Shown: positions 10,242-30,118 of the stretch, one piece after another
How positions within the stretch are numbered: position 1 is the first letter of the stretch
How the letters are laid out: each line of letters starts with the position of its first letter
From: Candidatus Zixiibacteriota bacterium
Lineage (GTDB): Bacteria; Zixibacteria; MSB-5A5; UBA10806
Length of the DNA stretch: 35,001 nucleotides
Direction: 5' to 3'
Assembly: GCA_020348065.1 (NCBI GenBank)
Contig: CP070742.1
Location: 2,373,376 to 2,408,376 of the forward strand
Position numbers and translations under genes: made by a program
Notes under the pieces: generated by a model
What the model was told of the DNA's origin: nothing
Seen by the model: the letters and a program-made list of their open reading frames with translations, nothing else
Databases searched by the model: none

Positions 10242-11537
10242 ATGTTCGGACTTAATATCTTCAATAAAAAATCTGTCACAGGCAAACCCCGGCCGGTCGA
10301 CCTGGCCCAGCGCGCCGGGTCGTTTACCTTTGTTACCAAACGCGAAAAAACCGGCTCGGCGCTCAAAAACGATGATGCCATGCTGAGCTTCATGGGCGAT
10401 TACGGATATTACGAACGTATCACCCTTTACCGGTTTATAAAAGACAACATCCCCGTCATCAACGGCGCCATCTGGACCTGGACCCGGCTCTGCTCCAGTC
10501 CGCTCGAATTCTATATCCCCGAAAATGAAAGCAAAAAAGACCTGAAGCTCCTGAACGACTCCGTATCGGCCTTAAACGAACGGCTGGCCTCCGACGATTA
10601 CCGCAAGTCGGGCGGTCTCGAAAGACTCTCCGATCTTTTCTTCAACTCCCTGTTCACCGACGGCGCTTTCGCCGGGGAGATTGAGTTCGGCAGGGGAAAA
10701 GGGATCACCCGTTTCCTACCCTCCGATGTCCGCCGCCTCTCGTTCGAGAAGGATGGAGCTCCGTCCTCCTGGAAGATCTTTCGCGAGACCGAGGATGGCA
10801 AGTCCCTGCTGGACCCCGCCGCTTTCATCTACATACCCCTCGATGACGACGCCGTCGATCCCCGCGGCAAAAGCATATTGCAGTCGGTCGGATTTGTAAG
10901 CCGAATGGAGCAGAAACTCCTTTATGATATGCAGCAGACCCAGGAAAAGGCCGGGTATAACAGGATGCACGTGAAAATCAAAAAACCCGAACGCCGCATG
11001 GGGGAATCCGAGGACAACTTCCTCGACCGCGCCAACCGTTATTTCGACGATACCGTGACCCTCTTCTCCGGAATAAAACCTGCCGACTCGGTGGTTACCT
11101 GGGACGACATCGAGATCGAGACCATCGCCCCCAAAAGCGGCAACACTTCCGCCTCCAACTCCTGGTATCTCTCTCACCGCAGCCTGGTGGAGGATATCTG
11201 CGCCGGCGTGCATCTCGATCCCTTCATGCTCGGCTATTCCTATGGCAACACCCGGAGCTGGGCGCGGTTCAAGTTCGAGCTGGTATTGAGGCAGGTGGTA
11301 TCGGTTCAGAAACCGGCGGTCAGGTTTTTCGAGTGGCTGGTTAATACTCATCTTGCGAAATCGGGAATAAACCTGAAGGCGGCTGTCCGGTTCAACAACG
11401 ACCGTATCAACGGCGCTCTTGCCCGATATGAATCGGAAAGAGAGGCCTGCGGCAGAATCATCGAACTTTATAACGCGGGATTGATCGATAAAGATGAAGC
11501 CAGAAACAGAATCTTCCGGATCGAAAGCGAAAACTGA
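10242..11537 (+). CDS. phage portal protein
   Basis: 431 residues, preceded by AGGGAG. The protein shows the portal-family pattern: an N-terminal region ending in a segment that samples neighbouring subunits (INGAIWTWTRLC), a clip-like hydrophobic beta region ending IYIPLDDDAVDPRGKSIL (196-213), and a long helical C-terminus (ARFKFELVLRQVV...). Portals form the dodecameric ring at one capsid vertex through which terminase pumps DNA. It is the first gene of the cassette, and large terminase lies two genes downstream, the reverse of the usual terminase-then-portal order. Family identity is from pattern recognition; no domain search was run. Confidence 0.82.
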   Translation: MFGLNIFNKKSVTGKPRPVDLAQRAGSFTFVTKREKTGSALKNDDAMLSFMGDYGYYERITLYRFIKDNIPVINGAIWTWTRLCSSPLEFYIPENESKKDLKLLNDSVSALNERLASDDYRKSGGLERLSDLFFNSLFTDGAFAGEIEFGRGKGITRFLPSDVRRLSFEKDGAPSSWKIFRETEDGKSLLDPAAFIYIPLDDDAVDPRGKSILQSVGFVSRMEQKLLYDMQQTQEKAGYNRMHVKIKKPERRMGESEDNFLDRANRYFDDTVTLFSGIKPADSVVTWDDIEIETIAPKSGNTSASNSWYLSHRSLVEDICAGVHLDPFMLGYSYGNTRSWARFKFELVLRQVVSVQKPAVRFFEWLVNTHLAKSGINLKAAVRFNNDRINGALARYESEREACGRIIELYNAGLIDKDEARNRIFRIESEN

Positions 11538-11913
11538 ACGAAAGACCGCAGTTGGCGTACTGGGCGGTTCCGTAACCAGGAAGAAAACCTCCAAACGCGC
11601 CAAAGGTTCAAAATCGGGACGATCCGATTTATCGGCGTGCCAATCTGTAAAAGAAGCACATCCCGAGCAAATCAGCCCCACCGTTACTGTAGTCGCTGCC
11701 CCGCAAAAACATGTGACCGACCTCGAATTCCTCGATACCGTTAAAGAAACCGTATATAAAAAGCTGGTAGACGGCGAACTCGATCTCAAAATCGATTCCG
11801 GCTTCAAAGCCATCGAGTTGAAAAACAAGATCTCCGAGACCTCCGAAAACGAGAGATTGCTTCTGGAGATACTTTCCGAAATCAGGTCCGAGGAACTGAG
11901 CAAATCGAAATAA
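11494..11913 (+). CDS. small basic protein between portal and terminase (possible small terminase)
   Basis: 139 residues; its start overlaps the portal gene end by 44 bp in another frame. Residues 10-45 are rich in Lys/Arg/Ser and probably disordered. Residues ~75-139 are predicted helical (FLDTVKETVYKKLVDGELDLKIDSGFKAIELKNKI). No family is recognised. Its position directly before the large terminase, and a DNA-binding-like charge distribution, make a small-terminase or packaging-adaptor role possible. It lacks an obvious helix-turn-helix. The Shine-Dalgarno site is weak, which suggests translation by coupling to the portal gene. Confidence 0.6.
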   Translation: MKPETESSGSKAKTERKTAVGVLGGSVTRKKTSKRAKGSKSGRSDLSACQSVKEAHPEQISPTVTVVAAPQKHVTDLEFLDTVKETVYKKLVDGELDLKIDSGFKAIELKNKISETSENERLLLEILSEIRSEELSKSK

Positions 11914-11927
11914 TAAAAGGTTGATAT

Positions 11928-13259
11928 ATGTCGCCACTAAATTCGGCCGGTTACGGACGGTGCTGGCGGCGTGCGGTTAGCGATCCGGTTTATTTTGCCC
12001 GCGCCTTTCTGGATTTCCATCCCCATCCCGGCCAGGCCAAATGGCTTAAAACCTCCACAGGTTCGGAAAACGCCCTGGTTACCGGCAACCGCTGGGGGAA
12101 ATCGGAAATTCAGGCGGTAAAACTGATACATCGCGCTTTCTTCCAGATCCGGGAAACAGCATACGATAAGCCGGGAGTCTACCGCTGCGCCAACGTTTCC
12201 ATTACGCAGGATCAAGCCGGGATTATCTTCGCGAAAATAAGCGGATTTATTGGACGTTTCTCGATTTTACATCCCTTCGTAAAGGAAATCAGGCAAACCC
12301 CCTTCCCGCATATCGTTTTCAAAAACGGCTCCGAGATCTGGGCTCGCTCCACTCATAACAGGGGAGAATATCTCCTGGGACACGATTTCGATTATATTAA
12401 TTTCGACGAGGCCGCTTACGATCCCGCCGGCGAGTGGGTGGTGGATAGCGTAATCAAACTTCGTCTCGCCGATAGAAACGGCGTCCTCGATTTCTCTTCC
12501 ACCCCCAACGGCCTGAACTGGTTTTTCAAGCGAAGTGAGATAATAAAAAGAGAAAAGCGGGGGATTGTCCGTCACGGCTCCACGTTCGAGAATCCGTATC
12601 TCTCCAAAAAATATCTTGCCGATCTGAAAAAGGGCTTATCGGAATCCCGCATAGCCCAGCATTTATACGGGAGATTTACATCCTTCGAAGGACGGCTTTT
12701 CCCGGAGCACGTCATTACCAACTGTCTGATCGATAAAGATAAATGTTACGTTGACAAAGCCGGTTTCTTTATCCACGGCTGGGACCTGGCCAGGAAAATG
12801 ACTCACACAGTCGGAATTACTATTGACGCTGCAAATAAACCATATAAGGTTATTGAAATCCTGAGAACCCAGCGCGAATGGCCGGTTATCATTAACGCCA
12901 TCAAGCAGAGACACAAAAGATACGGGGGAATTACCATCATCGATTCCACCGGCCTGGGCGATGTCGTACTGTCGGAGCTCGACGATATCGGGGCGGTGGG
13001 GTTCAATTTCGGCGGCGGCAACCGTGACCTGCTTCTGGCCAACTTCGAACGCGCCGTTTTCTCCGACGAAATAAGATGGCCGCACGAGGAGTTGCCCGAT
13101 AACGGTTCGGTCTGGAGCCTCACCGACGAGATCCGCGCCATGGATAAATCGTACATCAACGTCGGCGACGGTGTCTGCGCGCTGGCGCTGGCTCTCTGGC
13201 AGGTCCGCGAACGCTCGGCGGTGGCGCCGTTCCTCAGAGCGTCTATCGGCCGATTTTGA
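11928..13259 (+). CDS. terL: phage terminase large subunit
   Basis: 443 residues. The ATPase half has Walker A VTGNRWGKSE (51-60), Walker B YINFDE (156-161) and coupling motif SSTPNG (190-195). The nuclease half has GWDLA with D286, IIDSTG with D339, and a C-terminal GDGVCALALAL with D413, giving the acidic triad of the RNase H-like nuclease. This is an intact large terminase, which would cut and pump DNA into preformed capsids through the portal. The gene follows the 139-residue protein by 14 nt. It ends just before a GCGTCAGGAA-class hairpin (13281-13304), after which a separate promoter starts the cargo genes. Confidence 0.88.
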   Translation: MSPLNSAGYGRCWRRAVSDPVYFARAFLDFHPHPGQAKWLKTSTGSENALVTGNRWGKSEIQAVKLIHRAFFQIRETAYDKPGVYRCANVSITQDQAGIIFAKISGFIGRFSILHPFVKEIRQTPFPHIVFKNGSEIWARSTHNRGEYLLGHDFDYINFDEAAYDPAGEWVVDSVIKLRLADRNGVLDFSSTPNGLNWFFKRSEIIKREKRGIVRHGSTFENPYLSKKYLADLKKGLSESRIAQHLYGRFTSFEGRLFPEHVITNCLIDKDKCYVDKAGFFIHGWDLARKMTHTVGITIDAANKPYKVIEILRTQREWPVIINAIKQRHKRYGGITIIDSTGLGDVVLSELDDIGAVGFNFGGGNRDLLLANFERAVFSDEIRWPHEELPDNGSVWSLTDEIRAMDKSYINVGDGVCALALALWQVRERSAVAPFLRASIGRF

Positions 13260-13280
13260 AGGTTATTAAGTATTAATGCG

Positions 13281-13304
13281 CCGTCAGGAATCCTTTCCTG
13301 ACGG
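13281..13304. repeat. palindromic repeat after terminase
   Basis: CCGTCAGGAA / TTCCTGACGG, a perfect 10-bp stem with a 4-nt loop. Same class as 905-926 and 8591-8616. No T-run follows, so it is not a classical intrinsic terminator. Confidence 0.65.
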
Positions 13305-13392
13305 TGAATTAGCCGAGGGGGATGTGAGCCCCGCGCTCCTGATACTATGCATAATGTTAAAATCCAAAAAGAATGTGGCTTTCTTTTAATTA

Positions 13393-13422
13393 TTGACGAT
13401 ATGTTACATAGAAAGATAAAAT
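13393..13422 (+). promoter_or_regulatory. promoter for the secreted cargo pair
   Basis: TTGACG (13393-13398), an 18-nt spacer, then TAAAAT (13417-13422), 34 nt before the ATG at 13457. A host-type promoter inside the particle cassette implies that the two secreted genes are expressed independently of the packaging genes. Confidence 0.6.
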
Positions 13423-13456
13423 TATATTTATGGCTGATTATGACCCGGAGGTAACA

Positions 13457-14479
13457 ATGCTTAAATTCGGAAGCATAAGATACATAGTTATTATGACGAT
13501 ATTTTGCCTATCCAGTCAAACCGCATCGACAGTATCAAATGAAAATGACCCAAAAGAATTCTTTAAATCCGGCGTTACCTTCGGCTTCCAAGGGGACGGC
13601 GTCTTATTCGGCGACCCGGAATTTATCGGCCCGGATTATAACCCGGAAAATGACGAATTGCTGCAAAAATATTTACATGATAATACTCCGATCGGCACCG
13701 TTATAGGAAATTACGAATTGATTAAACTCCCGTTTGAATATATTGATAGCAAAATAGCAGATTCCCCCGGGGATACGGTACAGATAATTTCCTCAGGAAA
13801 CAAAATTTATGCGGTAATTGACAGAGTAGTGTATTTTTTTGATGCTGTAGGATGCTATCAAGGCGTCGAATGCGTCTTGGCCCCTATCGATAAACAGGAT
13901 ATTGAAATACGAATATCGGGCGATTTTGTTATTTTAAGAAGGGGCAAATTTTATTCGGGTTCGATAACCCCTTATCGGGAATATGTAATTTCCGGCCCAT
14001 CATATGAAGCCATAGTCGATTCGGTTGTCGTAGATTTGGCAAATGCGGCGATGGATTATAAGGACGGCAAATTAAGAAATATTAACAACCGGGGCGAAAG
14101 CGACTTTATCCGATCATGGAGGGAAAATCGCCAAGACCCCTCTTATGCATTCCCATTAATAATAATTGAATCAAAAGTCTACAGTATTAAGGCATTAGAT
14201 ATGCCCGATACGCTGTTTCTGGCTGTATACGCAAACGTCGAGGGTAATACGTTTCATGGATGGACAGCGCTGCTCAAACTGTATAGAAGTGGAAATGAAT
14301 GGAATGCGATACCCTTGCTCGAATCCCATCCTGGATGGGGTATTAGTATTAAGTGCTCGATAGACCTTAACGAAGATTCTATCCCGGAATATTTTGTATT
14401 AATCTGGAGTGGCGCTCTCTATACATATATAGACGGTAAGATGGAAATGGTCGCTTACGCAGGTTATAGCGGATGTTAA
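13457..14479 (+). CDS. secreted protein of unknown function, cargo paralogue 1
   Basis: 340 residues from ATG 13457, which has GGAGGT four bases upstream; an ATG at 13430 is in frame but has no such site. A signal peptide (MLKFGSIRYIVIMTIFCLSS) is followed by FKSGVTFGFQGDGVLFGDPEF, closely matched in the next gene. The C-terminal half contains SIDLNEDSIPEYFVLI, resembling a single FG-GAP/EF-hand-like calcium loop. It appears to be a periplasmic or surface protein. No family is recognised. It sits between terminase and prohead protease, where virion genes are expected, and has its own promoter, so it behaves like a phage moron or an insertion. Confidence 0.72.
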   Translation: MLKFGSIRYIVIMTIFCLSSQTASTVSNENDPKEFFKSGVTFGFQGDGVLFGDPEFIGPDYNPENDELLQKYLHDNTPIGTVIGNYELIKLPFEYIDSKIADSPGDTVQIISSGNKIYAVIDRVVYFFDAVGCYQGVECVLAPIDKQDIEIRISGDFVILRRGKFYSGSITPYREYVISGPSYEAIVDSVVVDLANAAMDYKDGKLRNINNRGESDFIRSWRENRQDPSYAFPLIIIESKVYSIKALDMPDTLFLAVYANVEGNTFHGWTALLKLYRSGNEWNAIPLLESHPGWGISIKCSIDLNEDSIPEYFVLIWSGALYTYIDGKMEMVAYAGYSGC

Positions 14480-14515
14480 ACAAGACCTGTAAAGAAATAC
14501 TTAAGGAGGCAAATT

Positions 14516-15514
14516 ATGAATATCCATGTATTGCTTAGACGGACTCTTTTGATATACATTTTCTTTTCGTTTACCGCCTTTACATACGCCGATGATTCTC
14601 AGATTAAAGCTTTCTTCGATTCCGGCGTGACGTACGGTCTTTTTGGCGACGACGGCCTGTATTGTTATCCCGAATATCAAGAACCGCGCGCAGAGCCGCC
14701 GGAAGATTATATCAGACCGAAAGTTTACAAAATGTATGAAGAAAGAAACGGAAAAGACATCTTCGACCTCCCGCCCGGATATATTGAGAATCATATCAAG
14801 GACCGGGTCGGCGATACGGTTATGGTTATATGCTCCGGGACCAGAGAATACGGCATAATCGACACTGTTGTATATTACTGGCCGGAAGTGGAGGAGGGAG
14901 TGGTATGCGTGGTCAGATCCCTCGGAGCGGAGATTAGTTCACCCGGCTATCCGCCTGACATAATGATTCTGCGAAAAGATAAATTTTACAACGGTGTCTT
15001 CATTCCATACGTGGAATATACCTTCGTAGATTATTCTTATCTTGATCTTAAGGATTCGCTTAAGGCAGTTATGATAGATAGCTATGTCAATCACATGATA
15101 TCATTTTATGACAGCCTGGTAAACAAAGCCTACTATGCACGTATGATAACCGCTTTAGACAGATTCGAGAAATTGAAGGAGACAGGTGAAAATCCCTTTT
15201 ACACCACCAGCGCCAGGTGTTATGGCGAAAAATCCGATATAATTCCCGATACTCTGTATATGGTTTATTCCTGCTGGCAAAACTCCGAAGGGTGCTGGAT
15301 GACTCTTCTCAAAATACACAAGGAGGGATATCAATGGATCCCGCAAACGATACTGGAGCCGCATAGGGACGTGACGACTTCAATTGAATTCAACTGCGCC
15401 TTCGACCTCGATAACGATGGAGTGCTGGAGTATTACATTAACAATTCCATCTATCAATTTAAAAATGGAGAATTAAAATTGATACATGGAGGACCGTTTA
15501 TCGGCGATATATAA
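14516..15514 (+). CDS. secreted protein of unknown function, cargo paralogue 2
   Basis: 332 residues, with a strong TTAAGGAGG upstream. Signal peptide MNIHVLLRRTLLIYIFFSFTAFTYA. Shared features with the preceding gene include FFDSGVTYGLFGDDGLYCYPEY near the N-terminus, GDTV.VI.SG...Y.IID.VVY in the middle, ILRKDKFYNG, and a C-terminal FDLDNDGVLEYYI calcium-loop-like motif. The two are diverged tandem duplicates, separated by 36 nt and probably co-transcribed. The protein has several cysteines, consistent with an oxidising compartment. Function unknown. Confidence 0.72.
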   Translation: MNIHVLLRRTLLIYIFFSFTAFTYADDSQIKAFFDSGVTYGLFGDDGLYCYPEYQEPRAEPPEDYIRPKVYKMYEERNGKDIFDLPPGYIENHIKDRVGDTVMVICSGTREYGIIDTVVYYWPEVEEGVVCVVRSLGAEISSPGYPPDIMILRKDKFYNGVFIPYVEYTFVDYSYLDLKDSLKAVMIDSYVNHMISFYDSLVNKAYYARMITALDRFEKLKETGENPFYTTSARCYGEKSDIIPDTLYMVYSCWQNSEGCWMTLLKIHKEGYQWIPQTILEPHRDVTTSIEFNCAFDLDNDGVLEYYINNSIYQFKNGELKLIHGGPFIGDI

Positions 15515-15582
15515 CCGATTCCGCGGGTTCAGGAAGTATTTCCGGCGCGAGAATCGTAGGCGGTTAGCCCCACGATACGCGG

Positions 15583-15603
15583 GGCTGCCGGCAGCCTTTT
15601 TAT
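15583..15603 (+). terminator. possible intrinsic terminator of the cargo unit
   Basis: GGCTGCCGGCAGCC is a perfect 14-base palindrome followed by TTTTTAT. It lies about 70 nt after the stop of the second cargo gene. The short loop makes it weaker than a classical terminator. It overlaps a GTAG-headed repeat (from 15556) with AGCCCC/GGGGCT arms. Confidence 0.45.
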
Positions 15604-15758
15604 AAATCAATCAAATGCTCTCGAATAAACTGTTTTATCGCCTCTGTAACCTGTTTTTTGAACTCTATGGGACTTGGGCCTTTCTTTTATGGCAAAGGAT
15701 TATACGGTTTTTTCGCTTCAATTTCGTAATCTCTTTCAACCTCAATAACGATATTGAA
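15600..15758 (-). pseudogene. decayed HicB-like antitoxin remnant
   Basis: Read on the minus strand, a single frame gives FNIVIEVERDYEIEAKK..., then one internal TAA, then GPSPIEFKKQVTEAIKQFI..., and a stop at 15600. The parts resemble the first strand and the last helix of the HicB family (NIVIE at the start, EAI..FI at the end). There is no start codon, because TAA precedes the Phe, and no HicA toxin reading frame beside it. The remnant is therefore non-functional. The similarity is by eye over ~50 residues and could be fortuitous, though the single open frame across the internal stop argues for real ancestry. Confidence 0.4.
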
Positions 15759-15765
15759 TTACGAT

Positions 15766-15819
15766 GTTAACCCGGGGCACTTAGGTTAACATAGGTTAAC
15801 TTTAAGCTATGAAGTTAAC
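15766..15819. promoter_or_regulatory. array of four GTTAAC half-palindromes (operator-like)
   Basis: GTTAAC occurs at 15766, 15785, 15795 and 15814. The centre spacings are 19, 10 and 19 bp, close to two, one and two helical turns. A weak promoter (TTAACA 15786-15791, 16-nt spacer, TATGAA 15808-15813) is overlapped by the inner copies. The array lies upstream of the HicB-like remnant (minus strand) and of the region leading to the protease gene (plus strand). It looks like a repressor-binding site; the regulator is not identified. Confidence 0.5.
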
Positions 15820-15860
15820 ATGAAATGCCGTCAAGTAAGCATTTTATTTCAACAAATAAA

Positions 15861-15920
15861 AAGGTCGGCCTCAAGGAGGGAGGGAAAGACCGACCTTCTT
15901 AGTGGCGGAATGGCTCCGCC
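15861..15920 (+). ncRNA. two consecutive hairpins, candidate structured leader RNA
   Basis: Hairpin 1 pairs AAGGTCGG (15861-15868) with CCGACCTT (15890-15897) around a 21-nt purine-rich loop containing AAGGAGGGAGGG. Hairpin 2 pairs GGCGGA (15904-15909) with TCCGCC (15915-15920). A second GGAGGGAG follows at 15952-15959, just before a 24-codon ORF. Adjacent stable hairpins with ribosome-binding-like purines suggest a regulatory leader or small RNA. This is inference from secondary structure only. Confidence 0.35.
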
Positions 15921-15965
15921 TCGTTCGGACTGGCGCAACACTCAGTTGGAGGGAGTGAATTTTCT

Positions 15966-16040
15966 ATGCCCAAACACCCATGCTGCCGGTTATTAACGCA
16001 ACATCTATGCCGATTAACAATCGATTTTCCTTTATTGTAA
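15966..16040 (+). CDS. possible 24-residue leader peptide
   Basis: ATG at 15966 is preceded by GGAGGGAG at 6-nt spacing and runs 24 codons to TAA at 16038. The peptide begins MPKHPCCRLL and contains three cysteines and three arginines; nothing in it is recognisable. Its strong ribosome-binding site is the only support, so it may be chance or a regulatory leader for the genes downstream. Confidence 0.25.
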   Translation: MPKHPCCRLLTQHLCRLTIDFPLL

Positions 16041-16213
16041 TTTCTTAATTAATAGAGAGTTACATTCCCGCCCGAAAGACTAGTACAAAAAAACCATGTA
16101 AAACTGCCTTCACACCTTCATTATGAGTGAAATGTCCTGCACACACCATTTTACAGGTTAATAATTGTAGGCGGCCTTATTAATAACCGTGTTCTGACTG
16201 TGCCCCTAACTGT
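16041..16213. other. AT-rich gap before the second control element
   Basis: No gene, clear promoter or strong hairpin is seen. The stretch leads directly into the 35-bp element at 16214-16248. Confidence 0.4.
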
Positions 16214-16248
16214 AAAAAACGCGTCCATTCTGCATTTGTTTTCAAAAG
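16214..16248 (+). promoter_or_regulatory. shared 35-bp control element, copy 2 (upstream of prohead protease)
   Basis: 30 of 35 bases match 10158-10192, including the 17-base 3' block GCATTTGTTTTCAAAAG. The block ends 33 nt before the protease ATG. This copy is not within a GTAG repeat, so the match is not explained by the dispersed hairpins. It marks the start of the second structural block of the cassette. Confidence 0.65.
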
Positions 16249-16280
16249 TCCCTATAAGTAAAAGCAGGAGGAAAAGGGAA

Positions 16281-17087
16281 ATGATAACTGAAACATTATC
16301 CGGCGAACTTTCCCTGGATAAGCCGAATGAACGCAAAGCATTCCTAATCGAAAGAATAAACGACGTAATAAAACCGCCGCGTCACGCTACGGAGGATAAT
16401 GTCAATATCAGGGCCATGTACCTCTTAAACGACCTGGTAAACACCCATGGCGGCCGGTTCGAACGCGATGAACTTTCCGCGTTATGCGAATTGATCCTGG
16501 ATACCCCCGTTATGATCGGCCATAACCGCGCCGAAGCCCCTATGGCGCGGACATTTCACGCTGACCTGGAAGAAAAGGGCGACATCCTCTGGCTTAAAAG
16601 CTATTTCTACTGGCCCAGCAGGGGAGAGGGCGCCGCCGATGAGACCCTGGAAAAGATAGATTCCGGTATATTAAAAGAATGCTCCATATCGTTCGTATAT
16701 ACATTCCCGCAATGCTCCGTCTGTGGCGAGGACATGAGAAAATGCCCGCATGATATCACTCTTTCGTCTGACGAAAACGACAAACAGTATTTCTATTATA
16801 AAGGCGTTAAAGAGGTGCTTGAGACCTCATTAGTATATAAGGGCTCCGTGAAGGGCACCTTCGTAACCGACCGCCTTGCTCGAGCCAATGTGGTTCAGGT
16901 TACCGTCGGTTTAAAGAATTATAAGAAAATAATATCAATTCCAAAATTAGACAGCCGGCAGGCCGGCCTTTATTTTCTCGCCAAAAACCATAACGCTCTG
17001 CCTGAAATATCGTTCGATGATCCTGATATAAAGACAACATTTGCCGTAAGAGAAAACGGTCTTTATCTGGTAACCGCAAAAAAATAG
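16281..17087 (+). CDS. phage prohead (capsid maturation) protease
   Basis: 268 residues from ATG 16281, which follows AGGAGG; the longer frame from 16200 would run through the control element. The core LDTPVMIGHNR...MARTFHADLE...LWLKSYFYWP...ETLEKIDSGILKECSISFVY matches the HK97-type prohead protease fold. H81 (in GHNR) and a serine in CSISF (134-138) are the likely catalytic residues. A metal-binding-like insertion, C145-x2-C148 ... C155-x-H157, follows. It would cleave capsid or scaffold during head maturation. The family call rests on motif order and its position just upstream of the capsid gene. Confidence 0.72.
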   Translation: MITETLSGELSLDKPNERKAFLIERINDVIKPPRHATEDNVNIRAMYLLNDLVNTHGGRFERDELSALCELILDTPVMIGHNRAEAPMARTFHADLEEKGDILWLKSYFYWPSRGEGAADETLEKIDSGILKECSISFVYTFPQCSVCGEDMRKCPHDITLSSDENDKQYFYYKGVKEVLETSLVYKGSVKGTFVTDRLARANVVQVTVGLKNYKKIISIPKLDSRQAGLYFLAKNHNALPEISFDDPDIKTTFAVRENGLYLVTAKK

Positions 17088-17095
17088 ACAACATT

Positions 17096-17371
17096 ATGTC
17101 TTTTAAAGAACCGATTGTAAGAAATATCATCGCCGTCGCCATAACCATATCGGCTGCGCTATCCGGTTACTTTGCCGCCTATACCGGCCTGCGGGTGGAA
17201 CTGGCGGGGAAAGCGGAGGAGCGTTATGTCGCCGAGATGGATATACGTCTGTCGAGGCTGGAGGCTGTCATAAACGAACGGTTTGCCACTAAAGACGACC
17301 TTGTCAATCTCAAAAAAGAGATGCTGGACAAACTCACTGCCATCCAAACGGTTCTGTCGGATATGGAATAG
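17096..17371 (+). CDS. small membrane-anchored coiled-coil protein
   Basis: 91 residues. One hydrophobic helix at about residues 9-30 (IIAVAITISAALSGYFAAY) is followed by a charged heptad-like helix to the C-terminus (DIRLSRLEAVINERFATKDDLVNLKKEMLDKL). It has no signal cleavage site. The gene starts 8 nt after the protease stop. A membrane-anchored coiled coil inside a head-gene block is unexpected. It could be an XhlA-like lysis accessory protein or could tether particle assembly to the membrane. Function is inference. Confidence 0.62.
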   Translation: MSFKEPIVRNIIAVAITISAALSGYFAAYTGLRVELAGKAEERYVAEMDIRLSRLEAVINERFATKDDLVNLKKEMLDKLTAIQTVLSDME

Positions 17372-17410
17372 TAAATGTGTGAACGTTTTATAAAACCAAA
17401 GGGGAGAATT

Positions 17411-17602
17411 TTGAATCAGGGTGAAATAAAAGAAAGATTGGAGAAGATAAAATCGGATATCGAAAATGCTTTCTCAATAGAGCTTATCGACTTCGATGAA
17501 ATTGAGAGGAAATTATCCTCGGTTATCGATGCCATTCAAGATCTTAATCGAACCGCAATATCCGAGGACAAAATCGTTCTGAACATCGTCAATTACATTT
17601 AA
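17411..17602 (+). CDS. small helical protein of unknown function
   Basis: 63 residues if started at TTG 17411, which has GGGGAG four bases upstream. An alternative ATG at 17375 adds 12 residues but has no ribosome-binding site. The sequence (GEIKERLEKIKSDIENAF...DEIERKLSSVIDAIQDL) is almost entirely amphipathic helix. Small helical proteins just before capsid genes can be scaffolds, but nothing specific identifies this one. It is part of the run from the protease to the capsid gene. Confidence 0.55.
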   Translation: MNQGEIKERLEKIKSDIENAFSIELIDFDEIERKLSSVIDAIQDLNRTAISEDKIVLNIVNYI

Positions 17603-17632
17603 ATCAAATAAATGCCAAAACAAGGAGAGTAA

Positions 17633-18055
17633 ATGAGCGTTAGAGACCAGAACCTTCAAACCGTCGGATTTCTCGCGGCCACCTTTAAAATCCATCAGAC
17701 CGCCGGCGAGGACGACCTGCGGGATGATGACGTCGGGAAAGCCGTCACCATAACGGGCGATTACGAGGTCGGGCCCGGCTCCGACGGCGATATCCTGCTG
17801 GGAAAACTGATATCGCTTTCATTAACCGACGCCGACAACGGCAAGAGGGTCGCCACCGTACAGATAGGCGGAATCTGCACTCTGCCGGTTGTATCGACTG
17901 TTCCCTCGGTGGGCGACAGGGTAGTGGTAAACGGCAGCGGGTCCGTGAAGCAGGCCCCCGCACTGGGCGGCGACGATCCCGCTGGCGGAAACGTGGCCAG
18001 GGGCACGGTTGTCGACGTTAACGGAACGTCAGAAGTAACATTAATTATAGGATAA
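17633..18055 (+). CDS. DUF2190-like capsid decoration protein
   Basis: 140 residues with a strong AAGGAGAG upstream. The pattern DVGKAVTITGDYEVGPGSDGDILLGKLISLSLTDADNGKRVATVQIGGICTLPV...GDRVVV...ARGTVVDV resembles the small beta-rich DUF2190 proteins that sit beside capsid genes and decorate the head surface. It is placed 15 nt before the major capsid gene, the usual site. The identification is by pattern and position. Confidence 0.65.
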   Translation: MSVRDQNLQTVGFLAATFKIHQTAGEDDLRDDDVGKAVTITGDYEVGPGSDGDILLGKLISLSLTDADNGKRVATVQIGGICTLPVVSTVPSVGDRVVVNGSGSVKQAPALGGDDPAGGNVARGTVVDVNGTSEVTLIIG

Positions 18056-18070
18056 TCACAGGGGATATAA

Positions 18071-19180
18071 ATGGAAATGGAAAAACTGTTATCATCGGAT
18101 CTCGGCAGGACCCTGGTTACCGCCGAGGAAAATAAAAATCGGGCAGGCGGCATTGTCGATCTCTCGCGGGCAAAGAATATAGAAATCGACAGGGATCTCT
18201 ACATCGAAGCCCAGTCCCGTGGAATGAGCCTGACCGAACTTCTGGAGCAGCCCGAATACGATCCCAGCCCGCCGGGATGCTCTCTCGACGCTTTCGAACG
18301 TCAACTGGCGGCAAAAGATCTCCGCGTATCCGGCGGAAATCCCATCACGGTCGAGATGTTCTACCGCGGAGCGCCGGCCTTGATGCCGGAATTCATGCAG
18401 AGGGAAATCCGGCGCGGAATGAGCATGCGGCCGGAGTTGGGAAGACTGCTGGCTTCCACCTCGCGGGTCAATACCTCCCGCTATACGCCCATCTATATCG
18501 ATCATTCCATGACCGATAGCGAGATGTCTTTAAGACCGGTGGGTGAAGCCGCGGAAGTCCCTGCCGTAAACGTCACCGAGCAGAACAACACCATCGCCAT
18601 CCCCGATTACGGCCTTTCTTTGAAGGTAACTTACAAGGCCCTTCGTTACCGTAGCATGGCCCAGTTCAAGGTGCTCTTGTGGTATATCGGCTACCGCCTG
18701 CAGTCCGACAAGGCCGCCCTGGTAGTGGATACCATCATCAACGGGGACGGCAACTCTAATCCCGCCGGCGTCATAAACACCGACGTTACCGGCACACTCG
18801 ATTACGACGACCTGGTGAAGTTCTGGAACGAGTTTTATCCCTATCGGCCCAACGTCCTGGTATGTCACAAAGATATGATCAGGAATATTCTTACATTGAC
18901 CGAGTTCAAAGACCCCATCGTGGGATTCAGCTTTCAGGCCAACGGCGAGATAACCTCGCCCCTGGGCGCTACGCTGATACGCTGCGATGAGGTTCCCTCC
19001 GATTATGTCATAGGTCTCGATAACCGATTCGCCATCGAGGAGGTTGTCGGCCAGCCCCTCATGGTGGAGTATGACAAGATCATCAACCAGAAGATCGAGG
19101 AGGCGGTCATTTCCGAGTCGGTGGCCTACGCCAAGGTCATAAAAGAAGCGTCTCTGATTCTCGATAACTCCTGGACCTGA
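18071..19180 (+). CDS. phage major capsid protein (HK97-like)
   Basis: 369 residues with GGGG before the ATG. An N-terminal helical, charged arm (~1-110) could serve as the scaffold (delta) domain cleaved by the adjacent protease. The rest follows the HK97 pattern: a long spine helix (ALRYRSMAQFKVLLWYIGYRLQSDKAALVVDTIINGDG), a P-domain strand and NPAGVINTD loop, then A-domain strands (LGATLIRCDEVPSDYVIGLDNRFAIEEVVGQPLMVEYD) and a C-terminal AYAKVIKEASLIL strand. It would form the icosahedral shell. Confidence 0.8.
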   Translation: MEMEKLLSSDLGRTLVTAEENKNRAGGIVDLSRAKNIEIDRDLYIEAQSRGMSLTELLEQPEYDPSPPGCSLDAFERQLAAKDLRVSGGNPITVEMFYRGAPALMPEFMQREIRRGMSMRPELGRLLASTSRVNTSRYTPIYIDHSMTDSEMSLRPVGEAAEVPAVNVTEQNNTIAIPDYGLSLKVTYKALRYRSMAQFKVLLWYIGYRLQSDKAALVVDTIINGDGNSNPAGVINTDVTGTLDYDDLVKFWNEFYPYRPNVLVCHKDMIRNILTLTEFKDPIVGFSFQANGEITSPLGATLIRCDEVPSDYVIGLDNRFAIEEVVGQPLMVEYDKIINQKIEEAVISESVAYAKVIKEASLILDNSWT

Positions 19181-19192
19181 TCCTGATTAGCC

Positions 19193-20632
19193 ATGCAGAA
19201 ACTGCTTGATACATCCGGGGCGGCTCGGCCCACCGGGTCGCCCCCGCAAAAAGCGCTCTTCAGGGTACCTTCGGGAGTTTTCAAAGGACGGCTGGCCGCC
19301 CTCTATATGAGTTCAACCTCGGCCGTCAAACTGATTTATTCGGATTATCCTTATGAAAGCTGGTCGACACCTCAAACGATTGTTTCAAATTCTTACGACT
19401 CTCCCTTCAGCTCATTTATGGATTCGGGCGGAAATATACATCTTGTCTACACCGACAGCTCCAAAGATATCAAGTATCTGGAAATCTCCTTTGCTGCAGG
19501 CGCGTGGACGCCGGGTTCGGCCGTCGACATCATAACGGTCGACGATAACTACAATCCCTTTTTCCTTATAGACGCTGATGACAACTTCTGGTGCCTGTTT
19601 GTCAATCACAAAACTTCGGGAGATTCCAAGTATTATGTCCGGGTGAAAATATCCGACGACAAAGGCGCCACCTGGGGAACGGGGCCGACCGATACCGGTA
19701 CCGAGCTGTCATCGGGATCGGGCGATATCGCCTATGTTGCAGGAACTCGAATAGGATCGAGGCTCTATGTTATATACGCCGACGGCAGATCCGATCTGAA
19801 ATACCGCATTTACGATACCCAGAACGAGATCTGGGATACCGAATACTCCATATATTCGGGAAATTATATCGATGACGATTTCGATATGGCAGCGTCTAAA
19901 GACGGGAAATTGAGTGTCGCCTTTGCGGTTAGCTCCGAGAGTAAACTGTATTTCAAGGAATATGACGGTTCATCGTGGAGCGGCGTTATTGAAGTGGAAA
20001 CCGTATCCTCCCGATCTCCGCAAATAGCGTATTTCGATTCCGTCCCCCATATTTTTTACGCCAAAAATCATGGAAGCAACTATTACTCCTTAAGAAAAGC
20101 CAAAAAATCGGGAAGCGGGTTTGCAGTTTCCGATTACGCTCCCGCAGTAGGAGCTTTCGATAAGGTCTTCTTATACGACGATTCCGCGTCAACAAAATAC
20201 CAGGACAAAACCGATGAGGCCTCCTCCGATACGTCCGGTGATGTCTTCCATAGTGAATCCTCCGCCCTGTTAGAATCCATCGAGGATTGTCTCTACCTGG
20301 GGAAGCAAAGCAGGTTCTATTGCGTCGCCTCAGTCCTTTCAACTGCCGGAGCGGGAGGTTCGGTGGTTTGGGAGTATTTCGACGGCGAGGACTGGGATCA
20401 GTTCACCCCCGATAGCGGCGCGTATAATTTCGATTCATCCGACAAATTGGTCTATCTCTGGGAAGACGGCGAATCGTTACCTTCGGATTGGCAGGTAACT
20501 AAAGTGAATAATTTTAACGCATATTGGATTCGCATAAGGGTTACGGCGGGATTTTCCACAAAACCGGTGGGAACTCAGATAATCGCCGCGACTAAGTGCG
20601 ACGACCTCGCCCTGGTTAGGGAGGCGGCATGA
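19193..20632 (+). CDS. sialidase-like beta-propeller structural protein (adhesin or baseplate-like)
   Basis: 479 residues with no signal peptide. Residues ~30-310 are repeated blades with Asp-box-like elements (DSGGNIHLVYTDSS, SDDKGATW, AVSSESKLYFKEYDGSSW), as in BNR/sialidase-type propellers; no sialidase Arg triad was identified. Residues ~340-470 form a beta domain with VVWEYFDGEDWDQF...W..TKVNNFNAYWIRIRVTAGF, a pattern I associate with phage baseplate or tail-fibre proteins. It is probably a particle-surface protein that binds a glycan or receptor. The next gene overlaps its stop by 4 nt. Confidence 0.6.
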   Translation: MQKLLDTSGAARPTGSPPQKALFRVPSGVFKGRLAALYMSSTSAVKLIYSDYPYESWSTPQTIVSNSYDSPFSSFMDSGGNIHLVYTDSSKDIKYLEISFAAGAWTPGSAVDIITVDDNYNPFFLIDADDNFWCLFVNHKTSGDSKYYVRVKISDDKGATWGTGPTDTGTELSSGSGDIAYVAGTRIGSRLYVIYADGRSDLKYRIYDTQNEIWDTEYSIYSGNYIDDDFDMAASKDGKLSVAFAVSSESKLYFKEYDGSSWSGVIEVETVSSRSPQIAYFDSVPHIFYAKNHGSNYYSLRKAKKSGSGFAVSDYAPAVGAFDKVFLYDDSASTKYQDKTDEASSDTSGDVFHSESSALLESIEDCLYLGKQSRFYCVASVLSTAGAGGSVVWEYFDGEDWDQFTPDSGAYNFDSSDKLVYLWEDGESLPSDWQVTKVNNFNAYWIRIRVTAGFSTKPVGTQIIAATKCDDLALVREAA

Positions 20633-21000
20633 ACACTACCATAGATTATCTCAAATCCAACAGGAAATGGCTGGTGCGAGATTATGTGGTATGGGGCGAT
20701 AATGGAACATTTGAAGCCGATATGATCATGACCGAGTTCGTTTCCGGCGATGAAAGAATCGTTTTCAACCACGAATTTACCGGGCAAACAGCGCAAACGG
20801 TGATCTATAATGACCTGGTCGATCATCGCGGTAATCAGCTTCCCGAAAAGATCGTTAATCCCGAAATTATCCTGATCCCCAAGAATCCAATCAGGAGTTT
20901 CATTCTCGGAAGCGTCGGCGAAAAATCGTTTTGTATCTCGAAAGATTCAAACCAGCTGTCCAATTCGCTGGTTGACCTTTTAATAATGGAGATGAACTGA
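20629..21000 (+). CDS. hypothetical protein of the particle cassette
   Basis: 123 residues; ATG overlaps the previous stop by 4 nt (ATGA) and the TGA overlaps the next ATG by one base, so this is tightly coupled in the operon. The sequence is mixed alpha/beta (YNDLVDHRGNQLPEKIVNPEIILIPKNPIRSFIL) with no signal peptide and no recognised family. Its place among head genes suggests a small head-completion or stopper role, which is inference. Confidence 0.6.
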   Translation: MNTTIDYLKSNRKWLVRDYVVWGDNGTFEADMIMTEFVSGDERIVFNHEFTGQTAQTVIYNDLVDHRGNQLPEKIVNPEIILIPKNPIRSFILGSVGEKSFCISKDSNQLSNSLVDLLIMEMN

Positions 21001-21821
21001 TGGCCTTTACCACCAGGGAGATAGTGAAAAAGCATATCCTGGATCATCATCTCGGTTCGGAGAACGTGGAAAATGAAAAAACCCGGTTTCAGGGAACGGA
21101 TTGGATACAGCTTTATAAAAGGATGATTCTCGGGGGTTCGGAAAAAATAAAAGGCAAAGAACAGATCGAGCCGACCCGCGAGGATATAAGCTTCGATACA
21201 GCCGATATTCAAAACCTGTCGCATACGGAATTGATACCTGATACGGTGGTGGCCGCGGGCGACAGTTCTCTCGGGATTATCTATATCGAAAATGTCGATT
21301 ACCACGTTGACTATGATATCGGCCGAATTACCAGGATAACCACCGGATCGATTCCCCAGGGCGCGGCCATTGCGGTCTGGTATCTGTACTATCGCGTCTA
21401 TGAAAAGGGGGTCGATTATGATATCGATTACCAGAGAGGCAGGGTCAGGCGCAGATCGGGTGGGGCCATCGAATCGGGACAATGGATCTGCGCCGATTAT
21501 ACGGCCGAGTACGGTTCTCTTGATGACGACGCTATCGCAAACGCCATATCCGAAGCCAACAGCAGGATTATGGATTTCATCGACGGCATCCATCACGATT
21601 CCAATGACAAACTTCTGGTGAGCGCCGAGACCTATCTGGCGGTTTCCATTATTTGTAAGATAAGGGCCATGGAATCAATTTCTCCCTCCCGCGGGAAAAC
21701 TGAAAGCGCCGACGCCATGTCCTGGACCGCCCTTTCGGATATGTATAAAAAAGAAGCGTTTAACATTCTTTCGAAATACGCCGCCCCCGGCGACAACCTG
21801 AATTCTCCGTCAAAAGCATAA
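21000..21821 (+). CDS. head-tail connector-like protein with internal beta repeat
   Basis: 273 residues. A middle section (~98-170) contains two tandem units of the form VDY.VDYD.GRI.R...G.I..G..I...Y. The C-terminal third is helical (DDDAIANAISEANSRIMDFIDGI...YLAVSIICKIRAMESI) and resembles phage connector or adaptor proteins of the gp6 type. This would join portal and tail or close the head. No tail gene lies downstream in the window. The family call is tentative. Confidence 0.5.
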   Translation: MAFTTREIVKKHILDHHLGSENVENEKTRFQGTDWIQLYKRMILGGSEKIKGKEQIEPTREDISFDTADIQNLSHTELIPDTVVAAGDSSLGIIYIENVDYHVDYDIGRITRITTGSIPQGAAIAVWYLYYRVYEKGVDYDIDYQRGRVRRRSGGAIESGQWICADYTAEYGSLDDDAIANAISEANSRIMDFIDGIHHDSNDKLLVSAETYLAVSIICKIRAMESISPSRGKTESADAMSWTALSDMYKKEAFNILSKYAAPGDNLNSPSKA

Positions 21822-21828
21822 GCCGATT

Positions 21829-22404
21829 ATGAGATACCTTTTTTTGACACTTCTGATTTTTTACTCTGCGGCGCAGGGCGATTCCGAGATCCTGTACGCC
21901 GATTCGGTCTCATCGCCCGATCAATGGATCAATGTCGGCGGCGCCAGCAAGGTCGAATCTGTGTCCGATGATGTTGACGGTAATTATATCGACGAAATCA
22001 CCCAGGGCGAGAAGCAGAGATTCACTGTAGAAGACGCCGGGGATATCGGCCCCCTTGACATAATTGATTCGATTGTTATTCACAGCCGTTTCAAAACGCC
22101 CAGCGGCACGGGAGTTGTCGCCAGGGTAAACCACATCGTTTCATCCACCGCCAACGGCACCAGTAGGACGCTTACAGGCTCATGGGCCAACTATACGGAC
22201 ACCTACTCCACCGATCCTGACGGTGGCGGTTGGAGTCTGCCAAGTATTAATAATCTCAAGGTGGAAGCGGAAACCGTTACCGTGCCCGCTTTAAAAAGAG
22301 CGCAATGTACCAGAATATATATCGTCGCTTATTATACTCCGGTTCCCGCCGCGCCTGTTTATCGCCGTAGAATATATCAACAGCAAATGTTATTGGGGGA
22401 TTAA
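21829..22404 (+). CDS. secreted jelly-roll-like surface protein within phage cassette
   Basis: 191 residues. It begins with a Sec signal peptide (MRYLFLTLLIFYSAAQG). A beta-sandwich-like region follows (SPDQWINVGGASKV, DVDGNYIDEI, VVIHSRF-like strands, GGGWSLPSINNLKVEA, RIYIVAYYTP), resembling a domain found in phage tail and spike proteins. An export signal is abnormal for a virion protein assembled in the cytoplasm. It lies 7 nt after the connector-like gene and its stop abuts the next ATG. It may be displayed on the cell surface or be a host domain captured by the cassette. Confidence 0.6.
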   Translation: MRYLFLTLLIFYSAAQGDSEILYADSVSSPDQWINVGGASKVESVSDDVDGNYIDEITQGEKQRFTVEDAGDIGPLDIIDSIVIHSRFKTPSGTGVVARVNHIVSSTANGTSRTLTGSWANYTDTYSTDPDGGGWSLPSINNLKVEAETVTVPALKRAQCTRIYIVAYYTPVPAAPVYRRRIYQQQMLLGD

Positions 22405-23850
22405 ATGAGACCTGTTTCAGTATTCCTTTTGATATTCCTGGTATCATCGATTTCGTACGCTACCGATTTCGGCCTGCTATCGGTTAATGATACCGTCAAT
22501 TTCCCGCTGGTCTGTATGGATACTCTGGGACGAAACGCCTCGCCGGATTCCGTACATGTGATAACCTGGTATCATGGCGAAAGCGCCAACGACAGCACCT
22601 ATGCCGTGGGCTCGACGTCCCCCCTCTCGACATCCTACATAGACAGCGTATACATGGCGGGAACGTCATATTATTTCTTCAAAGATATCGTGAACAATCT
22701 TGACGCTTCCGAAGGCAACGGGCCTTATTCCGGCGTCGTGGCGTTATGGAGCCAGGGATATCCCACATACAACAATTTTTCATTCACCAAAGTCTCTGAT
22801 GAAGCAAAAGACCTGGCGGGATGTCTTATCGCCATTAAGGATTCGGTCGAAAATCAAGATAATTGGATCGCCAGACAATCGGAGGTCGCCAACATCGACG
22901 GCTGGAATCCGATTACCGATAACGATTCGCTGATAATAGATCTCGAATCTTTTTCCTCAGCGGCGCCCGATGTAAATATAGCTTCCGCGGACAGCAACGC
23001 TCTGGAATCGGTCGATTTCGAGGATTATTTCCTTAAAGAATCGAAAATCGACAGCGGAGCCGTTTCCGAATCTAAGATCGCGAACGCCGCTTTCGACAGC
23101 GCCAAATTCTCCGTTGATTACTGGAATGCCCACTCCAATATCGGGGGATCGGCCTCTGTTCCTGATTCCGTGGCCGCCAGGATAGATTCGATACTTGCCA
23201 GCCTCGGCTATGATGCGTCCACCAGCGCCCACGATAAAATCGATAATCTTTCTCTTTCCGGCGGCGGGTCGGAACCGGAGACCCTGATCGTCATGTCATC
23301 GCCGGATTCTACTTTGATAGAAGGAGTATCCGTCATTGTCCGGACTCTCGATCAATCAACCGTAAAGGTCGACGGTCTTTGTACGGATCAGAACGGCCGC
23401 CGATTGCTCGAACTGGACGCCGACAGCTTCTTTGCAGCCTTAACGCATAATAACTACACCCAGACTCTTGATACGATCGTAGTAGAATCCGGCGGGGGAA
23501 CGGACACTCTCTGGATGACAGCATTCGATCCCGGCCAACCGTCGTCGCCCGATTTGTGTCGGGTTTATGGATGGATATATGATATAACAGGCAACGCTGT
23601 CGAGCGAACCAGCGTCACGGCGGAGATTCCCTCGGAGTTTCATCCGGTTAAATATAACAGCGTGATTATCACGCCCTTTAGAAAAACCGCGGAATCCGAC
23701 TCCACGGGATACTGGTATATCGACCTGTTTCCGAATCAGCTTTTGTCTAAAACCGAATCCGAGTACTTGTTCACCATCGAGTATCCGTCGGGAGTGATAT
23801 TTAAAACCGAAACCGCGGTGCCGGATTCGTCATCCTGGCAACTGGAATAG
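22405..23850 (+). CDS. secreted multidomain surface protein within phage cassette
   Basis: 481 residues, ATG immediately after the previous stop, with GGGGA upstream. Signal peptide MRPVSVFLLIFLVSSISYA. The central part (~200-290) has fibre-like sequence (KESKIDSGAVSESKIANAAFDSAKFSVDYWNAH). This is followed by two carboxypeptidase-regulatory/Ig-like beta domains (SSPDSTLIEGVSVIV..., RVYGWIYDITGNAVERTSV...). The style is that of phage fibres and adhesins, but it has an export signal. It might be a surface receptor or attachment protein displayed by the producing cell. Confidence 0.6.
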   Translation: MRPVSVFLLIFLVSSISYATDFGLLSVNDTVNFPLVCMDTLGRNASPDSVHVITWYHGESANDSTYAVGSTSPLSTSYIDSVYMAGTSYYFFKDIVNNLDASEGNGPYSGVVALWSQGYPTYNNFSFTKVSDEAKDLAGCLIAIKDSVENQDNWIARQSEVANIDGWNPITDNDSLIIDLESFSSAAPDVNIASADSNALESVDFEDYFLKESKIDSGAVSESKIANAAFDSAKFSVDYWNAHSNIGGSASVPDSVAARIDSILASLGYDASTSAHDKIDNLSLSGGGSEPETLIVMSSPDSTLIEGVSVIVRTLDQSTVKVDGLCTDQNGRRLLELDADSFFAALTHNNYTQTLDTIVVESGGGTDTLWMTAFDPGQPSSPDLCRVYGWIYDITGNAVERTSVTAEIPSEFHPVKYNSVIITPFRKTAESDSTGYWYIDLFPNQLLSKTESEYLFTIEYPSGVIFKTETAVPDSSSWQLE

Positions 23851-23862
23851 AAAGGGGATATT

Positions 23863-24231
23863 ATGATATCGCAAATGGTTGGGATTTATACCGAAGCGTC
23901 GATTTTTTCATGGATCGGGGATATGCTGTCTGAAAAATCGCTGGCCGCAATCGGCGCGGTGTTGATGTTTTACCTGGGATACATCATCAAAAAGGAAATC
24001 CTTCCGATTTTGAAAATAAAGCGTAACCGCGAAATGGCCGCGCATATTCTGGTTATTGCCGATGACGTTACCGATTATTTCCGTTTGAAATTCCCCAATG
24101 CCCACTGGTCGGTCTGGCTGGATAAAGCGGTCGACAGGATTATCGATATAACCGGCGTCGGCCGGGACGTCGCCGGGAGAGCGGCGAGAGCCTCGGTGGC
24201 CCGAAAGGATGTTCCGAAAATAGAGAAGTAA
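23863..24231 (+). CDS. holin-like membrane protein
   Basis: 122 residues with AAAGGGG upstream. One transmembrane helix at about 27-45 (LAAIGAVLMFYLGYIIK) is followed by a basic segment and amphipathic helices (AAHILVIADDVTDYF...DKAVDRIIDITGVGRDVAGRAARASVARK). Size and topology resemble the phage holin superfamily 6/LLH type. No endolysin or spanin is in the window, so whether it causes lysis is unclear. It is the last gene of the cassette and is followed by an intrinsic terminator. Confidence 0.5.
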   Translation: MISQMVGIYTEASIFSWIGDMLSEKSLAAIGAVLMFYLGYIIKKEILPILKIKRNREMAAHILVIADDVTDYFRLKFPNAHWSVWLDKAVDRIIDITGVGRDVAGRAARASVARKDVPKIEK

Positions 24232-24344: not shown

Positions 24345-24375
24345 AAGGCCGGGCATCCGGCCTTTATATATTTTT
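24345..24375 (+). terminator. intrinsic terminator closing the phage-like cassette
   Basis: AAGGCCGG pairs perfectly with CCGGCCTT around a GCAT loop, followed by TATATATTTTT. It stands 110 nt after the holin-like gene and before the host lipoprotein gene, so it probably marks the right end of the cassette transcript. Confidence 0.75.
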
Positions 24376-27789: not shown

Positions 27790-28019
27790 AAAATGTCTTG
27801 CAATGGGCCTGTGTAGTTCCTATTTTGAATTCGGCGGTTTGCGATCAACAAATCGGCGCCGCCGGTTTTGGATCCTTCATTCGGCAGTGATTTTCGTGAT
27901 CTACTAAATGCCGGATTATGGTAAATGTTGTTTGGCTGGTTTTTTAAAAAAATCACATTATCTTGGATAAGGATTGTAATTGCCGTTTTAGCGAGGGGTA
28001 TAGGGGAAAACGAAAATTA
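27790..28019. other. gap between the two dockerin genes
   Basis: No gene is seen. A weak hairpin, CGGCGG / CCGCCG with a 21-nt loop followed by GTTTTG (27832-27868), could be a terminator. Confidence 0.3.
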
Positions 28020-28048
28020 TTGATTTCCTTTTAATAGAAAATTATTAA
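28020..28048 (+). promoter_or_regulatory. candidate promoter of the LVIVD-repeat gene
   Basis: TTGATT (28020-28025), a 17-nt spacer, then TATTAA (28043-28048), 38 nt before the ATG. Confidence 0.4.
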
Positions 28049-28085
28049 TCCCTGAAGCGTAAAACCAAAAAAAGAGGTTGGAATA

Positions 28086-30089: not shown

Positions 30090-30118
30090 CGGGAGTTTAT
30101 CGAATAAAAGGAGGAAAA

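Follow-up and report, generated by a model that had tools for sequence, protein, structure and literature searches.

Why would a bacterium keep intact genes for a phage head and for DNA packaging where no genes for a long tail or for integration are recognised beside them? The question is raised by a cassette at positions 10242-24231 of the window, the 35,001-nucleotide stretch of a Candidatus Zixiibacteriota genome (G000; 3.74 Mb, a single contig) that was analysed here. We hold with great confidence that this cassette is a domesticated, vertically inherited head-and-packaging module, and we consider it likely that it works as a gene transfer agent (GTA), which would package host DNA and transfer it.

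Head and packaging genes and the search for a tail

All genes of the cassette are read from the plus strand. They follow one another in the order portal, small gene, large terminase subunit (terL), two secreted paralogues, protease, two small genes, decoration protein and capsid, and then beta-propeller, small conserved gene, connector-like gene, two exported proteins, small membrane protein and a hairpin. The core genes and the 3' boundary are as follows.

10242-11537, plus strand: portal protein (phrog_3753, 1.8e-27)
11928-13259, plus strand: terminase large subunit TerL, ATPase and nuclease (phrog_2, 9e-25; Terminase_6N just above cut-off)
16200-17087, plus strand: prohead protease-like protein (phrog_16951, 5e-13; in 28 of 28 capsid-holding relative loci)
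17633-18055, plus strand: head decoration or cement protein (phrog_4588, 7e-7; phrog_122, 2e-4; in 28 of 28 loci)
18071-19180, plus strand: major capsid protein, HK97-type (phrog_3922, 5e-68; PF25209, 1e-8, above cut-off)
24345-24364, plus strand: terminator-like hairpin behind the last cassette gene

Each of the core genes reads intact, and the PHROG and Pfam matches bear out the gene calls of the original prediction, which had been made from the letters of the DNA; it had also seen the set end in a terminator, and a terminator-like hairpin lies at 24345-24364. A promoter scan gave a score no better than shuffles. Both halves of the TerL profile find counterparts in solved phage terminases (5tge, 7e-11; 4znj, 1e-8), and in an alignment of 12 sequences the Walker A motif TGNRWGKS, the Walker B motif FDE and residues D286, D339 and D414 of the nuclease half are invariant. 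In the protease, H108 and S162 are invariant in all 29 sequences and a CxxC...CxH cysteine knuckle is conserved; in other families the protease is longer by about 300 amino acids at its C-terminus. A portal profile match was obtained in all nine single-contig genomes of the phylum that were searched, and a sequence search of solved structures with the capsid gave nothing useful. Since the portal and the ATPase and nuclease motifs of TerL are kept almost everywhere, selection for DNA packaging is indicated, and the intact TerL sequence would be compatible, though only compatible, with the packaging of random host DNA. An encapsulin nanocompartment, that is an HK97-fold shell with a cargo enzyme and without portal and terminase, was rejected because both of the latter are present and conserved.

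Family searches recognised no tail tape measure, sheath or integrase in the cassette, as had been predicted, and no tail, integrase or phage replication PHROG family within 20 kb of either end of the window. In the whole genome, the closest gene of an integrase family lies at a distance of more than 400 kb. Among 27 genomes of the phylum the tape measure family PF10145 was over cut-off in none and the sheath family PF04984 in one, while both searches were positive in several control genomes. These counts speak against the earlier suggestion that the cassette is part of a phage whose tail genes lie elsewhere. The original prediction had also named two findings that would make the cassette an ordinary prophage or relic, namely a tail module with an integrase just outside the window and broken reading frames in relatives. 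Neither the former, in the 40 kb of flanks, nor the latter was found.

Inheritance within the Zixibacteria

The capsid gene is present in 85 of 98 relatives and in 73 of the 78 good genomes of the phylum, nearly always as a single copy and never with an internal stop, and a profile search found it in 88 of 97 genomes of the phylum as against 11 of 291 outside it. Several capsid-less genomes still carry terL, so that the gaps are in part a matter of assembly; among the good genomes checked for three genes, only G040 and G098 are without capsid, terL and portal alike. Capsid identity follows kinship, being 95% within the genus, about 80% within the family, 68-73% within the order and 56-67% across the class. 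In one genome (G081; L232 and L233) the capsid gene is broken into two parts separated by about 600 kb, and each of the two stretches contains runs of N; a scaffolding error, or an inversion that cut the gene, is the probable cause.

Trees of six cassette proteins and of six ribosomal-locus proteins from 28 genomes have 19 of 25 splits in common, where label shuffles gave a mean of 0.11 and a maximum of 2, and they conflict in only two pairs of well-supported splits. The distances of the cassette proteins correlate with the ribosomal distances (Spearman 0.59-0.74 per protein), with none of 999 permutations as high. The ratio of nonsynonymous to synonymous substitution (dN/dS), computed between G000 and G001 at a dS of 0.65-0.97, is 0.030 for the decoration protein, 0.048 for the capsid, 0.052 for the portal and 0.055 for TerL. 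Gene order is kept across 16 families (28 relative loci), and in six of these (f1, f2, f9, f17, f18 and f19) the portal gene adjoins one divergently read tetratricopeptide repeat gene, which, being common to several families, indicates a fixed chromosomal site. Congruent trees, a fixed neighbour and low dN/dS are the marks of a gene set that the host needs. Two of the checks that had been proposed for the cassette, synteny in other Zixibacteria and dN/dS of the capsid and terminase genes, came out in favour of conserved order and of purifying selection, and the earlier idea of a GTA-like or otherwise domesticated particle is strongly supported by the phylum-wide single copy, the co-divergence with the host, the purifying selection and the fixed position.

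Portal and terL are not always found next to the capsid genes. They lie apart from them in G001, G003, G005, G009, G018, G032, G037, G041, G059, G065 and G097. The gap measures about 15 kb (G041), 18 kb (G065), 90 kb (G001), about 410 kb (G097) or 1.3 Mb (G059), and the remaining split genomes have the two loci on different contigs. Since both loci are kept, both are probably needed. In G097 (L230 and L037) a C-terminal fragment of terL still adjoins the protease gene at the capsid locus, possibly a relic of the relocation or an assembly join.

Candidate vertex proteins and the function of the particle

The remaining genes of the cassette are as follows.

11494-11913, plus strand: small lysine-rich protein (no family match beyond phrog_1007, 6e-4)
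13430-14479, plus strand: secreted protein (no homologue in 28 relative loci)
14516-15514, plus strand: secreted protein, tandem paralogue of the preceding product (no homologue in 28 relative loci)
17096-17371, plus strand: small coiled-coil protein with one transmembrane segment (kept in 24 of 28 loci)
17375-17602, plus strand: small protein in the place of a 137-amino-acid protein of other families
19193-20632, plus strand: beta-propeller with C-terminal beta domain (27 of 28 loci; AlphaFold predicted local distance difference test, pLDDT, 91.7)
20629-21000, plus strand: small conserved protein (26 of 28 loci)
21000-21821, plus strand: connector-like protein, beta domain and three C-terminal helices (27 of 28 loci; AlphaFold 86.9)
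21829-22404, plus strand: exported protein, variable accessory (profile matches in 3 of 28 loci, of which one is weak)
22405-23850, plus strand: exported fibre-like protein (24 of 28 loci)
23863-24231, plus strand: small membrane protein, weakly holin-like (14 of 28 loci)

The predicted propeller resembles sialidases and lectins in Foldseek searches and also a chain of the LME-1 phage portal-tail complex (9efk_M, 2e-10), with sialidases ranking higher. A beta-propeller in a short-tailed portal-tail assembly is thus found both in LME-1 and in phage T7, whose gp12 nozzle is built on a seven-bladed propeller (PMC6702177); in contrast to these, the Zixibacteria protein shares no sequence similarity with them and its position on the portal is a surmise. 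We therefore regard it as a putative short-tail nozzle or receptor-binding protein, and it might equally be a receptor-binding adhesin. In Foldseek searches the connector-like protein was matched in part by baseplate, tail and neck proteins of phages, its homologues adjoin capsid or terL in other phyla, and a sequence search of solved structures with it gave nothing useful; by tblastn, neither it nor the propeller matched any phage record. For the small protein encoded between them no family or structural match was obtained and the solved-structure sequence search was of no use either; it may serve in head or neck completion. Sequences of the fibre-like protein align with a hydrophobic N-terminus, which is export-like in 17 of 19 of them, a variable middle and a conserved C-terminus, whereas the accessory gene in front of it is replaced in other families by unrelated secreted genes. 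The holin assignment of the small membrane protein is weak, one homologue matching the holin family phrog_6918 at 0.065, and a membrane or lysis role is possible for the coiled-coil protein as well.

The products of 19193-20632, 20629-21000, 21000-21821, 22405-23850 and 23863-24231, to several of which the original prediction had given no name, are probably particle parts, conserved across the phylum. The cassette had originally been called head-only. No tail tape measure or sheath was recognised, and to this extent the term holds; with a short connector or tail probably among its own products, the cassette is better described as having no long tail. The gene at 11494-11913 adjoins terL in families f1 and f2 and stands behind the counterpart of 20629-21000 in most others; a small terminase subunit is a guess for it. 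The two secreted paralogues at 13430-15514, without homologue in the relative loci, are a lineage-specific insertion between terL and the protease gene and probably stay outside the particle. Downstream of the cassette, at 26203-30664 of the window, FG-GAP and LVIVD proteins with dockerin domains are encoded next to a protein that weakly resembles cohesin; together they may form a surface system of the cellulosome kind in Zixibacteria.

How might such a particle work? We suggest that the module was acquired by the common ancestor of the Zixibacteria and vertically inherited thereafter. Capsid, decoration protein and protease would form a small head on the portal, which the intact terminase would fill with host chromosomal DNA, and the portal vertex would be sealed by the connector and the propeller, acting as a short tail or a receptor-binding plug; whether the particle indeed has a short tail we judge to be evenly balanced. 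Release would be by lysis, the exported fibre-like protein may aid attachment, and a recipient could take up the DNA via the ComEC pathway, ComEC being encoded in all 27 genomes of the phylum that were searched.

Several observations weigh against this proposal. In G024 (L226; Zixibacteria RBG-1; 99% complete, one contig) portal and capsid are kept and secreted proteins occupy the place of terL, which was detected neither at the locus nor elsewhere in the genome. A signal peptide is unusual on a virion fibre, and the N-terminus of the fibre-like protein looks like one for export. No endolysin was recognised in the Zixibacteria cassette, the assignment of a small terminase is only a guess, and the resemblance of folds that suggests a short tail could equally mean a lectin-like adhesin. 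ComEC is compatible with DNA delivery and is so widespread in bacteria that it is weak evidence. The cassette is known from genes alone, its hosts being uncultured, and its comparison with FpGTA, the element of Faecalibacterium prausnitzii considered below, is one of gene list, gene order and gut relatives, not of sequence homology.

Could the particle, then, do something other than transfer genes? PBSX is a capsid particle that kills relatives, and the capsid may likewise serve for killing, for other cargo or as a signal. The delivery machine is so far a reconstruction, the propeller and the exported fibre-like proteins may be there for killing or for adhesion, and the failure to detect terL in G024 would fit such a role. 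However, the almost universal retention of the portal and of the TerL motifs indicates selection for packaging, and for a tailocin-like action the 27 genomes searched offer no tape measure and a sheath in a single genome, so that we think this explanation unlikely. A long tail assembled from diverged, unrecognised genes elsewhere in the genome appears improbable. The genome-wide tail search was one of two families, the scan with tail families was one of the flanks of the window, and portal and terL themselves have split off in many genomes; yet those flanks hold no tail family, the tape measure is absent from all 27 genomes, and no further conserved gene set stands beside the split portal and terL loci.

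Mobile elements explain the cassette less well still. Satellites of the capsid-forming phage-inducible chromosomal island kind (cfPICI) likewise have capsid, portal, protease and terminase but no tail genes, and borrow the tails of a helper phage. Against such an origin, which we regard as very improbable, stand a cassette and surroundings in which no integrase, regulator or replication gene lies, and a phylum-wide vertical inheritance with split loci, and with one fixed site in close relatives, that is unlike a mobile satellite; membership in this group was rejected since no integrase and no replication or regulation module lies beside the capsid genes. Even less can be said for a repeated acquisition of head genes from prophages, whether ordinary or in decay. 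While all core genes are of phage descent, the co-divergence with the host, the fixed position, the single copy, the purifying selection and the lack of integrase and replication genes contradict it, and for the phylum as a whole an active or defective prophage is refuted by congruent trees, fixed neighbours and the missing integrase.

Relatives outside the phylum and known gene transfer agents

The International Committee on Taxonomy of Viruses (ICTV) defines GTAs by particle proteins derived from caudoviricetes, by full endogenisation, often at several loci, and by mostly vertical inheritance with co-diversification of the host; random pieces of host DNA are packaged into a head too small for the GTA's own genes, and the DNA is delivered (PMC9662315). 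The cassette, as known from its genes, has portal, terminase, capsid and decoration matches of that descent, fixed neighbours, split loci and no integrase nearby, and it shares 19 of 25 splits with the ribosomal tree and loses capsid identity with kinship from 95 to 56%. In the first three of these features, those on which a sequence can decide, it agrees with the definition; for the other three, packaging, head size and delivery, particles would be needed. Its separate portal and terL locus in many Zixibacteria recalls the known multi-locus GTAs (PMC9662315). RcGTA (Rhodogtaviriformidae) and the other ICTV GTAs are likewise vertical, co-divergent and multi-locus, with phage-derived head and packaging genes; RcGTA, BaGTA and BhGTA differ in having tails of 49-100 nm, whereas no tape measure was found here. 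General searches, which included no direct comparison, turned up no match to ICTV GTAs. Tailed phages of Thermus, Meiothermus and haloarchaea share the terminase family at 22-24% identity, with 5tge and 4znj as solved homologues, but these are whole phage genomes of which only the terminase matches.

By gene list and order, the closest validated system appears to be FpGTA (Nat Commun 2026), the first podovirus-like GTA-like element reported, whose particles of about 40 nm show no tails and contain 8.4-8.9 kb of host DNA (capsid RCH50849.1, portal RCH50851.1; PMC12946183). Both share a compact operon of large terminase, portal, head scaffold region and capsid with further genes at a second locus; FpGTA is podovirus-like, without a visible long tail, and near-ubiquitous in its host genus, which is Gram-positive, as against a whole candidate phylum for the cassette. 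Gut-derived and other contigs encode capsids of 30-39% identity to that of the cassette, the gut contigs in the same gene order and without an assigned host.

Among these relatives, MT835508 (L177), filed as a phage, is a piece of bacterial chromosome: it holds ribosomal genes and, within 6 kb, the genes for small and large terminase, portal, protease and capsid in a row, without recognised tail. L131, listed in IMG/VR, is a cassette of the Zixibacteria type; both records are a warning that such loci are counted as viruses. Two compact gut elements of about 14 kb with a related head set (L134, L138), in L134 joined to a contractile tail with sheath and baseplate J, could be contractile GTAs, tailocins or prophages. 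In G169, of another phylum, small and large terminase, portal, protease, connector and a PF07486 cell-wall hydrolase share one contig (L227) without recognised tail gene, and the capsid is on another contig. Capsid, connector, large terminase and portal are found in G266 and G397, again of other phyla; in the latter (L234) there are small membrane proteins and a protein of 121 amino acids, a candidate endolysin that matched no family. G255 and G385, also of other phyla, have capsid and portal on separate contigs. In G255 the second gene after that of the capsid encodes a Dit-like distal tail protein (L180:2895-3575; phrog_33, 2e-11), so that this relative may possess a tail tip. Two capsid relatives with one in-frame TAG (G123:C18:9367-10446 and G286:C31:3558-4295) are possibly phages with a recoded stop or in early decay. 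The head lineage was thus probably domesticated more than once, and not always without tail proteins.

To our knowledge, GTAs with known genes are confined to few lineages, and those formally classified are long-tailed; our literature search found no paper linking Zixibacteria with gene transfer agents or prophage capsids. We consider the chances even that the Zixibacteria have an ancestral, phylum-wide GTA without a long tail and that it belongs, as a single branch, to a wider set of short-tailed GTAs, most of which have gone unrecognised; the estimate includes that these share one capsid, portal and protease lineage and extend to gut bacteria and several other phyla. Capsid, portal, terL and propeller provide a culture-free query set for virome proteomes and for particle-protected DNA of sediments. 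If our proposal is true, particles dedicated to DNA transfer can be maintained by bacteria for as long as a phylum has existed.

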